Below, one piece after another: positions 5,301 to 9,521 of a stretch of 64,000 nt of DNA; within the stretch, counting starts at the first letter, position 1; every line of letters begins with the position of its first letter. The stretch is from assembly GCA_025462735.1 (NCBI GenBank), contig JAOAPC010000020.1, positions 124,001 to 188,000 on the forward strand, written 5' to 3'. The notes beneath the pieces were generated by a model. It was given only the letters and a program-made list of their open reading frames with translations. It was not told where the DNA came from and did not search any database. Both the position numbers and the translations under genes were made by a program. This DNA is from Acidobacteriaceae bacterium. Lineage in GTDB: Bacteria > Acidobacteriota > Terriglobia > Terriglobales > Acidobacteriaceae.

Positions 5301-7469
5301 CTATGCTCTTTGCGTCCCGCCGAGTTCGACGAGCGCGTTAACGATCTTCGCCGACCACTCGTTAACCTCATCCTCGCGGAGAGTGCGCTCAAGCGATTGA
5401 AATTTCGCGCGCAGCAGGATCGAATGGCTGCCCGCAGGAACTGCTCCCGCGCGGAAAATCTCGACGGGAGTTAAGCTGCGCAAATCCGGAAGACGGATCG
5501 CGCGAATGGATGCTTCGATCTTATCGAACGTGATTTCGTCTCGGAACACAAACGAGAAGTCGCGCTCTACCGCTGGGAATTTTGCCAACGGCCGGTAAAG
5601 AAGCTGGCGCAGAGGTAGGTGGTAAAGCCGATCGGCGAATACCTCTGCGATAAAAACTTCCTGGCGTAGCTTGCGCCCGGCGGCGATCTGGGAATCGATC
5701 GGTCCGAATTGCGCAACCGCTTCTCCATCGAGCAGAGCTCGCGCCGAACGCCCCGGCTGATAATACTCAGCAGTTTCCGGGTCGAAGGACAACGCGCGGT
5801 GCTGAAAATTCCCCAGCAATGTGGTCACGTCTCCTTTGAAGGACCGGAAAATGTCCAAGTCTGATGTGGCTTTACTCTTGTCTAATAAGCCGCCTTGTGG
5901 CAGATCGTGCTGCAACGCCGAGCGAGTTGCGGCTATGCAGATGCGACGGTGCTCTGCCGTGGTTGCGCCGGAAGCTTCGTAGATATCCCCGATTTCAAAG
6001 AGCCGCACATTTTCCGTCCCGCGGTTCAAATTGTAGGCGAGCATATCCAGCATCCCGGGCACCAGGGAACTCCGCATCAGCGATGCTTCTGCGCTCAGCG
6101 GATTAGCAATCTCCACCAGCGGCGTCGACGAAAACGCCTCCGCGTCTTCGTGGGAAACAAAGCTGAGCGAGACTGCTTCGTTGTAACCCAGCGCCAGTAG
6201 TGAAGAGCGCAGCTTCGCTTGTTTTGCGGCATTCGGGTCCTCCACCACGGCACCTGCAAACGCGGGCAGCGTATTCGGAAAGTTGTTGTATCCGTGCAGG
6301 CGGGCAATTTCTTCAATCAAGTCAATCTCCCGCTCTATGTCGAGACGCCAGCTAGGAATGCGTACCAGGAATTCCGGCTGCGAATCAGGTTCAGGGACTA
6401 ACTCGAACCCGAGGCGTTTGAGGATAGCGACAATCTCATGAATCTCGAGTTTGGCGCCGAGGAGTCGTTGCACCTGCGAAATGCGTATCTGAATCGGCGC
6501 TTGCTCGAGTTCGTGAGCGACAGCATCGATCTGATTGCCTACGAGTTCGCCCCCGCCGGAATCGACGATTCTTTGCGCGACCAGAGCACATGCCAAAGGC
6601 GTCGCTGCATAATCCGCGCCACGCTCAAAACGATGCGATGCGTCGGTATGTAGTCCGTGCCGCTTGGCAGTTTTTCGAACCGCAACCGGATCGAACCAGG
6701 CCGACTCGATCAAAACATTCTTTGTTTTCTCGGTGATCATCGTCTCGAACCCGCCCATCACTCCAGCGAGTGCAACGGGTCGATTCGCGTCAGCGATGAT
6801 CAAGTCTTCCGGCGAGAGCTTGCGGTCAACTCCATCAAGCGTTTTGAGGGTCTCGCCTTGGCGAGCCCGGCGGACGACGATCTCACCGCCCTGGAGCAGA
6901 TCAAGGTCGAATGCGTGCGTCGGATGGCCCATTTCCCAAAGCGTATAATTCGACGCGTCTGCGGCATTGTTGATCGCGCGCTGATCAACTAGAGCTAAAC
7001 GGCTTGCAATCTTCTCAGGCGAGGACTTGATCTTTACCCCGCGCACGATCTGTGCGGTGTAGCGGGCGCACCCTTCGCGGTCATCAATCTGGATTTGAAA
7101 GGGCACGGCTTTAGCCGTGCCGCTGTTTTGATTTTGGGTGGAGCTGTGCTTCAGCGCAGCGTTATCTTCGACCGGGAAGGGCACGGCTTCAGCCGTGCCG
7201 CTACGGTTCCCATTCTTAACGGCTTTAGCCGCTGAGGTTTCGATCGGCTTCAGTGGAATTTTATACAGCGCTGCCGCTTCGCGTGCGACGCCATAATGAT
7301 TCATCGCGTCGGGACGGTTGGTCCCTATTTCCATTTCAAAAACCGTATTCGCGCCTTCGCCAGAGATGCCTTCGACTGCGATCCCAATCGAGGTTAGGTC
7401 TTCGGCGAGACGGCGGTCGTCCACCGGTAGATCAACAAAGTCGCGAATCCATTGTGGAGAGATCTTCAT
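5301..7469 (-). CDS. pheT: Phenylalanine--tRNA ligase beta subunit, short form lacking the OB tRNA-binding domain
   Basis: The beta subunit of the alpha2-beta2 enzyme that charges tRNA-Phe. I chose ATG 7467-7469 (MKISPQWIRDFV); the open frame runs further upstream, but that would overlap pheS. The protein is 722 residues against about 795 in E. coli. The N-terminal helix pair runs straight from EGISGEGANT into FEMEIGTNRPDAMNHYGVARE, so the EMAP-II-like OB domain of about 110 residues is absent. Next comes a non-conserved insert (about residues 80-125) encoded by palindromic repeats. The B3/B4 editing domain (CARYTA, SHRFERGAD), B5, the B6/B7 core (LIEEIARLHGYNNFP) and a C-terminal ferredoxin-like anticodon-binding domain (FPAVERDFSFVF) are present. 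It starts 34 nt after pheS with no clear Shine-Dalgarno, so translational coupling is likely. Confidence 0.93.
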   Translation of the reverse strand: MKISPQWIRDFVDLPVDDRRLAEDLTSIGIAVEGISGEGANTVFEMEIGTNRPDAMNHYGVAREAAALYKIPLKPIETSAAKAVKNGNRSGTAEAVPFPVEDNAALKHSSTQNQNSGTAKAVPFQIQIDDREGCARYTAQIVRGVKIKSSPEKIASRLALVDQRAINNAADASNYTLWEMGHPTHAFDLDLLQGGEIVVRRARQGETLKTLDGVDRKLSPEDLIIADANRPVALAGVMGGFETMITEKTKNVLIESAWFDPVAVRKTAKRHGLHTDASHRFERGADYAATPLACALVAQRIVDSGGGELVGNQIDAVAHELEQAPIQIRISQVQRLLGAKLEIHEIVAILKRLGFELVPEPDSQPEFLVRIPSWRLDIEREIDLIEEIARLHGYNNFPNTLPAFAGAVVEDPNAAKQAKLRSSLLALGYNEAVSLSFVSHEDAEAFSSTPLVEIANPLSAEASLMRSSLVPGMLDMLAYNLNRGTENVRLFEIGDIYEASGATTAEHRRICIAATRSALQHDLPQGGLLDKSKATSDLDIFRSFKGDVTTLLGNFQHRALSFDPETAEYYQPGRSARALLDGEAVAQFGPIDSQIAAGRKLRQEVFIAEVFADRLYHLPLRQLLYRPLAKFPAVERDFSFVFRDEITFDKIEASIRAIRLPDLRSLTPVEIFRAGAVPAGSHSILLRAKFQSLERTLREDEVNEWSAKIVNALVELGGTQRA
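7096..7235. repeat. Cluster of GGCACGGCT-AGCCGTGCC palindromes inside pheT
   Basis: Two perfect 20-nt palindromes, GGCACGGCTTTAGCCGTGCC (7102-7121) and the same with TC in the loop (7180-7199), plus two decayed ones (7144-7161 and 7220-7231), lie within the pheT frame. Each perfect copy is translated as SGTA(K/E)AVPF. An intergenic copy of the same palindrome lies at 8991-9010. PheT proteins generally do not have this stretch. Confidence 0.88.
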
Positions 7470-7478
7470 GATTGCTGC

Positions 7479-7500
7479 GAACGACCAACGACGAACGGCC
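7479..7500. repeat. Stutter repeat in the pheS-pheT gap
   Basis: A run of near-identical 7-9-mers (GAACGACCAACGACGAACGG) fills most of the 34-nt gap and occupies the place of the pheT ribosome site. Its reverse complement matches the repeat at 41725-41760 at about 19 of 20 positions. Confidence 0.65.
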
Positions 7501-7503
7501 GTC

Positions 7504-8658
7504 TCAAACAAACTGCTGCAAAAACCTGACGTCCCCCTGAAAGAACAACTGCAAATCATCGAGCCCGTACTTGAGCATTGCTATCCGGTCCACGCCCATG
7601 CCGAAGGCGAAGCCGGAAATTTTCTCGGGATCGTAGCCGTTGTGCTTGACGAATTCGAAAACGTTCGGATCGACCATGCCGCAGCCGAGTATCTCGATCC
7701 ATCCCGTCTGTTTGCACGGACGGCACGGTGCGTTACCATCACCGCGTTTTCCGCTTCCACCGCATACGAAGCAAGATACGAACATTTCCGCGCTGGGCTC
7801 CGTAAAGGGAAAGAATGACGGCCGGAAGCTGGTCTTTACATCTGATCCGAACAGCGCCTTCATCGCGTGGTCGAGCGTGCCTTTCAAATCCCCGAATGTA
7901 ATCTTGGTGTCGACCGCTAAGCCTTCAACTTGATGGAACATGGGTGAATGGCTGGCATCGGGAGGATCGTTGCGATGTACTTTGCCGGGCACCAGAATTC
8001 GTAATGGCGGCTTCATCTTCTCCATGGTGCGGATCTGCACCGGAGAAGTATGCGTTCGTAGGAGCAGTTGCTCGCGGCGCGGCTTCGATTCCTGGCCCGC
8101 GATAAATAACGTGTCCTGGGTGTCGCGTGCCGGATGGTTCGGCGGAAAATTCAGCGCTTCGAAATTGTAGTAGTCCGTCTCGATCACCGGCCCCTCGGCG
8201 ACCGAGTAACCGAGATTACGAAAGACCGCAATGATCTCGTTCTGCGTGCGGATGATCGGGTGCTCAGCCCCAATCGGCCGGCGAATACCGGGAAGGGAAA
8301 TGTCGATGGCAGATTCGCCTTTCGTAGCCGGTGCCATCGCAAGTGCAGCTTCGACCTTCGCTTCAACTTCAGCTTTGAGTTTGTTAACCCGCTGGCCGAC
8401 TTCTCGCTTAGCTTCTTTCGGAGCTGCCTTCAGCCAGAGTTCATTAACCTGCATCAGTATGCCGTCTTTGCGGGCCAGCCATCGATCGCGGAAAGCCTTG
8501 CGTTGATCTTCGCCGGTTAACGCTACGGGTTCTTTGTCCAATGCCGCAAGAAGCTTTTCGACGGCCTTGTCGAGCGCCGCCGGCGAAAAATCTTTCAGTT
8601 TGGGGACGGTGTATGCCAAGTTTATTTCTTCGCTAGGGGCGTTTGCATTTTTTTTCAA
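7504..8658 (-). CDS. pheS: Phenylalanine--tRNA ligase alpha subunit
   Basis: The catalytic subunit, a class II synthetase that makes phenylalanyl-tRNA. An N-terminal coiled coil for tRNA binding (about residues 15-125) is followed by the class II core. Motif 2 appears as [31 protein letters not shown]. The Phe-site and motif 3 regions appear as [15 protein letters not shown] and [18 protein letters not shown] Cys4 zinc-ribbon-like insert ([20 protein letters not shown]) replaces the shorter loop of E. coli PheS, and such inserts occur in some lineages. Both plausible starts are TTG. TTG 8658 is used here but is only 2 nt from its GGAGA. TTG 8619, just before [10 protein letters not shown], is the alternative. 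It lies after rplT and before pheT in the translation cluster. Confidence 0.93.
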
Positions 8659-8668
8659 ATCTCCAGCG

Positions 8669-8968
8669 TCATTCCCAGCCGCTTAGCGGCGACATTTAAT
8701 TAGCCCAGCACGTCAGTGCTGGGATGTTGATCGTTCCGAAGTGAGTCCCTTCAGGGACGACACGCCGGCATTGTGTCGTCCCGTGAAGGACTCCACTCTA
8801 TCGTGCGGGGCTAGTTAAATTCCGCAGCTACGCGGCTCGTCTCGAAAGATTTCACAAGCATTCGGCGCCCCGGCGTCAACATCGCGCCTTCGCAATCCTT
8901 CAAATGCAGATTCCTCGACTACGCAGGATCGTTCGCCTTGCGAACGATTCCTGCTCCATCGGAATGAC
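8669..8968. repeat. Nested block of palindromic elements between rplT and pheS
   Basis: This block makes up most of the 497-nt gene-free stretch 8659-9155. The outermost pair is GTCATTCC (8669-8676) against GGAATGAC (8961-8968). Inside lie a 127-nt element with 19-nt terminal inverted repeats (8694-8820) and a strong hairpin at 8923-8954 (GCAGGATCGTTCGC paired with its complement plus one bulge). A palindrome at 8991-9010 follows. I see no coding frame worth calling in the stretch. Confidence 0.7.
8694..8820. repeat. MITE-like element with 19-nt terminal inverted repeats
   Basis: The left end (8694-8712, ATTTAATTAGCCCAGCACG) and right end (8802-8820) are complementary at 17 of 19 positions. 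Within it, CCCAGCAC-GTCA-GTGCTGGG (8704-8723) forms one hairpin. 8743-8763 with 8773-8793 forms a second, 21-nt-arm hairpin with two single-base bulges. No open frame is present, so any mobility would have to be supplied in trans. Confidence 0.7.
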
Positions 8969-8990
8969 AAAGTATAAGGGAATTGCATTC

Positions 8991-9010
8991 GGCACGGCTG
9001 AAGCCGTGCC
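8991..9010. repeat. Intergenic copy of the pheT palindrome
   Basis: GGCACGGCTGAAGCCGTGCC has the same 9-nt arms as the two copies inside pheT, with GA in place of TT or TC in the loop. It lies between rplT and pheS and shows that the pheT sequence belongs to a dispersed family. Confidence 0.85.
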
Positions 9011-9155
9011 CTGATACGAACCAAATCCGTCAGGGTTCCAGACTTGAGAATGATCCCACCGGTGCAAGTATCGTGGGTGGGCGCCGACGCTCAGGGAATA
9101 CTAATCGCTGGGCGCAAAACGACAGGTCTGAAGGCTGACGGCCGAAGGCTGGTTT

Positions 9156-9521
9156 CTACGCGGCCTTGCCGAGAGCGCCCTTCGCCTGCTCGGCGAGGCT
9201 CTTAAAGGCAGCGGCGTCGTTTACCGCCAGATCAGCCAGAATTTTACGGTCGAGTTCCACGCCCGCAGTTTTCAATCCATGGATGAACTGGTTGTAGCTC
9301 ATGCCATTCAGCTTGGCGGCGGCGCCGATGCGGACAATCCACAGCGAACGGTATTGGCGCTTTTTCTGCTTTCGCCCGGAATAGGCGAACTTCAAGCCGC
9401 GATCTACGGCCTCTTTCGCCGAGCGGTACAGCTTTGACTTTGTCAGGAAATAACCGCTGGCGCGGTCTAATATCTTCTTGCGTTTGGCGCGGCGTTTGGT
9501 CCCGCGTTTTACACGAGGCAT
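9156..9521 (-). CDS. rplT: 50S ribosomal protein L20
   Basis: Binds 23S rRNA early in large-subunit assembly, and in many bacteria it represses its own operon. The 121-residue length and the N-terminus [18 protein letters not shown] are standard. So are [34 protein letters not shown] and the globular C-terminus ([23 protein letters not shown]). It follows rpmI and infC as in most bacteria and precedes pheS. The gap to rpmI carries two palindromic repeats. Confidence 0.98.

Follow-up and report, generated by a model that had tools for sequence, protein, structure and literature searches.

In-frame palindromic elements in the pheT linker of an Acidobacteriaceae bacterium and their probable origin from RAYT-associated REP-like repeats

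The pheT gene of this Acidobacteriaceae bacterium contains 105 nt in excess of a 72-nt linker, comprising four palindromic elements that are read in frame. This extra DNA very probably consists of RAYT-associated REP-like elements whose in-frame insertion a floppy linker tolerated and which were then inherited and left to decay, the cell's own RAYT transposases being the most likely agents of the spread of such palindromes, those of pheT included. The gene lies in a window of 64,000 nt (the whole stretch of DNA analysed), to which coordinates refer unless a contig or locus is named.

The expanded linker and its hairpins

pheT is an essential gene and has only one match in the own genome (G000). 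Its product of 722 aa scores 545.5 bits against TIGR00472 (cutoff 402.65) and the gene is complete, an alternative longer start being listed at 7559. For 55 loci the linker was delimited by two conserved anchors; after removal of two loci lacking an anchor and nine duplicates, 44 distinct linkers remained with the own one included (the 0-nt linker of L103, among the 44, is taken as an anchor artefact). The linker is 72 nt long in 19/44 and 177 nt in the own pheT. Dispersed elements are inserted in frame at the very linker named in the initial annotation. The features concerned are the following.

5301-7469, minus strand: pheT, phenylalanine--tRNA ligase beta subunit, 722 aa (open reading frame, TIGR00472, PDB relatives 4p71 and 3pco)
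7083-7259, minus strand: expanded pheT linker, residues 71-129, 177 nt (anchored linker comparison, sequence, pLDDT)
7172-7237, minus strand: two-hairpin unit made of D, 21 nt, B and then the tail CTTCCCGG (arrangement seen at 37/83 sites)
7221-7237, minus strand: D hairpin CCTCAGCGGCTAAAGCC, translated TSAAKA (member of the D family)
7180-7199, minus strand: B hairpin GGCACGGCTGAAGCCGTGCC, translated GTAEAVP (copy searches, reading phase)
7143-7160, minus strand: C hairpin GCTGCGCTGAAGCACAGC with the tail TCCACCC at 7136-7142 (C family, perfect form in congener G003)
7102-7121, minus strand: B hairpin GGCACGGCTAAAGCCGTGCC with the variant tail CTTTCAAAT at 7093-7101, translated GTAKAVPFQI (copy searches, tail, phase)
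8991-9010, plus strand: intergenic hairpin between rplT and pheS, with the A-family tail CTGATAC at 9011-9017 (window search)
7504-8658 and 9156-9521: pheS and rplT, which flank the hairpin at 8991-9010

Direct reading and repeat finding both yield the two perfect 20-nt palindromes (7102-7121 and 7180-7199), which stand in codon phase 0 and are translated SGTA(E/K)AVPF, as initially annotated, and two weaker ones (7143-7160 and 7221-7237). The weaker pair had been called decayed, a label that does not hold, as they belong to the C and D families, which have copies of their own. The D hairpin and the B hairpin at 7180-7199 form one complete unit, while the C hairpin lies 21 nt from the second B hairpin, in the position of D. 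The intergenic copy at 8991-9010 is likewise present, and the rplT-pheS spacer (8640-9017) holds several different hairpin repeats.

At up to three mismatches, GGCACGGCTNNAGCCGTGCC has three matches in the window, while the mean over 100 dinucleotide shuffles was 0.03 and no shuffle reached three. It is extremely unlikely that the stretch is ancestral PheT sequence with coincidental or compositional palindromes. Linker length does vary even in palindrome-free relatives, as that reading would allow, but the shuffles, the reversed-pattern controls (0 matches), the recurrence of the 72-nt linker and the palindrome-free congeners all speak against it. The initial annotation had proposed that the same residues in close relatives devoid of such palindromes would mark the stretch as ancestral; this check was made and spoke against ancestry, as the palindrome-free G005 and G006 have linkers of 87 and 84 nt, the shortest of the genus, without the extra residues.

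The AlphaFold model of the own PheT, computed within an alignment of 21 sequences, has a mean pLDDT of 83.5 and a pTM of 0.54, with pLDDT below 50 at residues 83-120, which lie in the linker. The match to 4p71, the one structure whose alignment was shown, stops at residue 86 and restarts at 131. We infer a floppy loop, which would be tolerated there at low cost and might be close to neutral.

Repeat families and their position in genes

Genome-wide, GGCACGGCTNNAGCCGTGCC has 22 exact copies and the relaxed GGCACG-type palindrome of 20-21 nt has 87, of which 83 were located and four were not; the reversed-pattern control gave 0 in each case. The family is thus a short dispersed palindrome in many copies, as REPs are. 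A 12-nt degenerate pattern was discarded as useless, since it matched 166 and 168 times on the two strands and its reversed control 204 and 196 times. Families of the GGCACG hairpin are set by their tails, namely CTTCCCG (B), the CTTTCAA variant (8/83 sites) and CTGATAC (A). The D family (CCTCAGNGGCTNNAGCC) occupies 32 sites in the sampled DNA, seven of them inside predicted genes and three of these seven being the 3' ends of transposase genes, and the C family (GCNGCGCT..AGCGCNGC-TCCACCC) has 10 sites with both the C stem end and the tail in the sampled DNA.

A D hairpin (at most two mismatches) lies within 70 nt of 37/83 sites. In all 37 it stands opposite the tail (0/83 have it on the tail side), and its distance to the stem is 20-24 nt in 32 of the 37 partnered sites; as a control, 9/20000 random 70-mers contain D. 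The most frequent form of the unit has two hairpins in a set order, consisting of a short D, about 21 nt, a GGCACG hairpin of 20-21 nt and the tail CTTCCCG or CTGATAC. Such D-B units outnumber the tight tails-out doublets, of which there are six, all with 21-nt stems, the gap being 24 nt in five and 23 nt in one.

The initial annotation had expected a genome-wide search to tell how often the palindrome lies within genes and in which phase. Of the 83 located sites, 65 are intergenic despite a coding fraction of about 82% (taken from three sampled contig stretches), a mainly intergenic position that is characteristic of REPs, and 18 fall in predicted genes, called by a simple codon-usage script whose error these counts carry. 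Three of the 18 were dropped, one lying upstream of a ThiS domain before a likely internal start and two being transposase 3' ends, so that 15/83 hairpins are retained inside 11 protein genes. By domain search these are pheT, dnaG, uvrC, ispE, mnmE, mnmG, rtcB, modC, an HpnB-like glycosyltransferase gene (below the HpnB cutoff), a C26 peptidase gene and the gene of a protein weakly matching PMT_2. The depletion within genes is strong (binomial p 1.5e-36, sites taken as independent). Units landing in genes would mostly be purged, and the survivors would be those with a length divisible by three, no stop codon and a flexible linker to occupy, such as the one that separates the N-terminal part of PheT from its CARY-containing core.

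The stem read in phase 0 is stop-free on both strands at 78/83 sites, and the in-gene hairpins divide into 11 in phase 0, three in phase 1 and one in phase 2. The preference for phase 0 is insecure, being significant by hairpins (11/15, p 0.010) and not by insertion events (8/12, p 0.059), and its expectation derives from 44 variants built with the commoner loops, while 5/83 real stems have a phase-0 stop on a strand. No claim is made from the comparison of in-gene with intergenic copies for 21-nt stems (9/15 vs 22/65, p 0.08; by events 6/12 vs 19/62, p 0.32), tight doublets (3/5 vs 9/70, p 0.027 on tiny numbers) or D partners (4/15 vs 31/65, p 0.16). A bolder reading, in which a self-spreading family has adapted to life inside genes and RAYT elements keep rewriting linkers throughout a genus of bacteria, is suggested by the stop-free phase 0, by the 21-24-21 nt doublet, which keeps one phase, and by core-enzyme linkers as recurrent landing sites, and is regarded as unlikely.

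In congener G003, loci were obtained for 15/55 sites, 12 of them intergenic and three in one gene at 108-nt spacing. This gene is a 772-aa frame (L272, L273, L274; contig C8 81364-81600) with three exact GGCACG hairpins, which appears as a tandem in-frame expansion in the 3-kb loci. Two other repeats were encountered in the own genome. The non-palindromic AACGACCAACGAC, often translated NDQRPTTND, is found in intergenic DNA and within mnmG, dnaG and others (17 matches, some overlapping, five in predicted genes; window 7480-7492, C7:148780, C12:597999, C8:60367). The hairpin family GGACGCC.CTCGTCC (C12:28438, C9:154367, C8:47575 and others) lies in predicted genes at 5/10 sampled sites, is translated VG(A/T)DALVRP at two sites and in other frames at the rest, and has one copy adjoining the L027 transposase.

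Transposase genes and the linker series among relatives

RAYT transposases are single-strand HUH enzymes. The genome contains 12 Y1_Tnp genes, and the six tested, which were picked with RAYT loci in mind (L020 and L023 being tested as the two L029 genes), all score above the cutoff of the NCBIfam model REP_Tyr_transpos; the transposases of L016 and L017 fail that model and pass the IS200 one. One RAYT matches the TnpArep structure 4er8 (E 2e-9). Transposase genes are flanked by B hairpins in L019 and L024, by A hairpins in L020 and L023 and by C hairpins in L022, a flanking of the RAYT gene by repeats of the family that is a mark of REPs. The A tail of the hairpin at 8991-9010 is the one that adjoins the two C18 transposase genes, and the D-B unit borders the transposase genes of L019 and L024, where the B stem (GGCACGAC) is one base pair off that of pheT (GGCACGGC) and only the tail agrees. 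For the D hairpin by itself there was no matching transposase; D does occur in the three transposase 3' ends mentioned above.

The pheT palindromes might instead have been copied from intergenic repeats by recombination, template switching or gene conversion, with no transposase acting at pheT. The units are short, no target footprint was resolved, and the stems differ between species and are still paired (GGCTCGGCTAAAGCCGAGCC in G007), which repeat conversion could also produce. Copying is nevertheless unlikely, as whole two-hairpin units occur with fixed order, spacing and tail, just as at the L019 and L024 transposase genes, and as hairpins are spread over 11 genes of unrelated function. 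Against the transposase reading, the analysis yielded neither an observed transposition nor an empty site clean enough to show the element ends, and catalysis by RAYTs is put forward as likely.

Another repeat of the window is also found near Y1 transposase genes.

8677-8723, minus strand: Acido-Lenti-1, two-hairpin repeat of Rfam RF01687 (45.6 bits, gathering score 37)

Further copies form an inverted pair flanking the IS200-like Y1 transposase gene of L017 (1338-1383, minus; 1967-2012, plus), lie both upstream of the Y1 transposase gene in L016 (1309-1355, minus; 1119-1165, plus) and downstream of one in L018 (2021-2067), and are present in L025 (122-168) and four times in 140 kb of contig C12. 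Acido-Lenti-1 appears as probably an RNA in a listing of 2010 (PMC2864571). Judging from the position of these copies, it is probably a repeat from the ends of IS200-like transposases rather than an sRNA gene in its own right.

The relatives in named records are acidobacteria, Terriglobales and allied names. Most outgroups have linkers of 72 nt, palindrome-free congeners 84-87 nt and palindrome-bearing ones 99-201 nt (G001, G004 and G007 99 nt each, G002 144 nt, G003 201 nt). Relaxed palindrome copies number 31 in G001, 7 in G002, 55 in G003, 22 in G004, 13 in G007 and 0 in G005 and G006, several of these genomes being incomplete (G007 65% and G005 78%, with G006 96% complete). Copy number does not predict insertion in pheT, since G010 (60 copies) and G012 (28 copies), which belong to other genera, keep the 72-nt linker. 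Long linkers without D or GGCACG also occur (L061 123 nt, L074 and L080 108 nt), and that of L061, the pheT of G008 from another genus, has an unrelated 8-bp hairpin (GAGACGCC-GGCGTCTC), so a different element may use the linker there.

D, at up to two mismatches, occurs at the same pheT site in G002, G003, G004 and G007, and these four congeners share related elements there, as judged by sequence; the motif was not found in the pheT linkers of G001, G005 and G006. Perfect hairpins of at least 6 bp are kept in the linkers of G003, G004 and G007 and are absent from those of G002 and the sister species G001, whose genome has palindromes elsewhere. A second pheT fragment of G004 (L105, at a contig end) also has a GGCACG hairpin in its linker. 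GGCTCGG stems, as seen in G007, have 0 matches in the sampled own DNA, so the variant stem of G007 is without a source family there. In the tree built from the rest of PheT, which the genus members entered through their named records and which is without G005 and G007, six of them (own, G001-G004 and G006) group together at 92/99, the own gene with G001 (AA144) at 100/99, and G006 falls outside the other five at 93/88, many other forks being left open.

Hairpins might alternatively be retained in pheT for a role in the mRNA, such as translation pausing or operon attenuation. G003 and G007 do keep perfect stems, of differing sequence, but hairpin number, family and order vary by species, G002 is without a perfect hairpin of at least 6 bp, the same hairpins recur in genes of unrelated function and most copies are intergenic, which makes this role very unlikely. 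With RAYT-associated insertion as the preferred reading, an order of events may be inferred in which inserted units are inherited and then decay or gain new neighbours, and the linker would come to vary between species of the genus. Linkers of DnaG, MnmG and UvrC also vary widely in length among relatives; the MnmG hairpin is common to the own genome and G004, G012 has a B hairpin of its own in MnmG, and the UvrC linker of G007 contains a doublet with different stems, one of them imperfect.

Mobile, normally intergenic palindromes of soil acidobacteria, placed repeatedly in frame in enzyme linkers, may thus show a way for proteins to grow longer and stay intact. The route by which palindromic DNA comes into proteins becomes testable, since assays can be set up for the transposases and their substrates as well as for the longer and shorter sites. 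Linkers that vary among aligned core proteins of acidobacteria should be treated with caution, as they can be mobile DNA.

Comparison with known palindromic elements

REPs wholly within genes were reported in 2013 from several phyla, including Verrucomicrobia and beyond Rickettsia (PMC3733652). As described there, GTAG/CGTC intragenic REPs belong to mostly intergenic families with some translated copies, are single, dimeric or grouped, occur in genes of Uvr nuclease, repair and tRNA synthetase functions, and are linked to RAYTs in the case of GTAG repeats, flexible linkers or loops being suggested as their sites. The main text of PMC3733652 does not name pheT or dnaG, and names Acidobacteria and Koribacter only for transposase genes; no earlier report of REPs in acidobacterial protein genes was found in the open-licence literature. 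The elements described here resemble GTAG/CGTC REPs as short, mostly intergenic and partly translated palindromes with a RAYT association, and differ in the two-hairpin unit. Their tail consensus is CTTCCC or CTGATAC, and within 10 nt of the stem on the side away from the tail GTAG occurs at 3/83 sites and CGTC at 0/83; they are therefore not filed in the GTAG/CGTC super-families.

REPINs are inverted REP doublets, for which PMC3116915 gives 14/1067 16-mers overlapping genes, as compared with the 15/83 hairpins inside genes here. The six tight tails-out doublets resemble REPINs in arrangement and may be mobile units like them, but D-B units are the commoner form in this genome. TIRYT/TIRtron elements of the same phylum, as outlined in PMC3733652, are tyrosine transposase genes with repeats on either side, some of these doubly palindromic, and one Koribacter TIR is a member of a repeated family; by comparison of descriptions, the flanking repeats here are hairpins complementary to themselves and dispersed in many copies. 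The mechanism of the RAYTs is likely, by analogy, that of TnpAREP, the biochemistry of which is treated in PMC8266576. Other small mobile sequences are translated in enterobacterial genes (PMC2759123).

The initial annotation held that such palindromes in a different phylum would extend the Rickettsia precedent; the intragenic REPs of 2013 had already done so, and the present extension is not the first. Both Rickettsia palindromic elements, as presented in PMC3733652, and the present hairpins are translated in frame in protein genes. The likeness noted is one of behaviour, and the elements here belong to a different phylum and are linked to transposase genes of the same genome. In-frame palindromic insertions are hereby tied to candidate transposases of the same genome, the unit is named as a two-hairpin module, and one essential gene provides a series of species.
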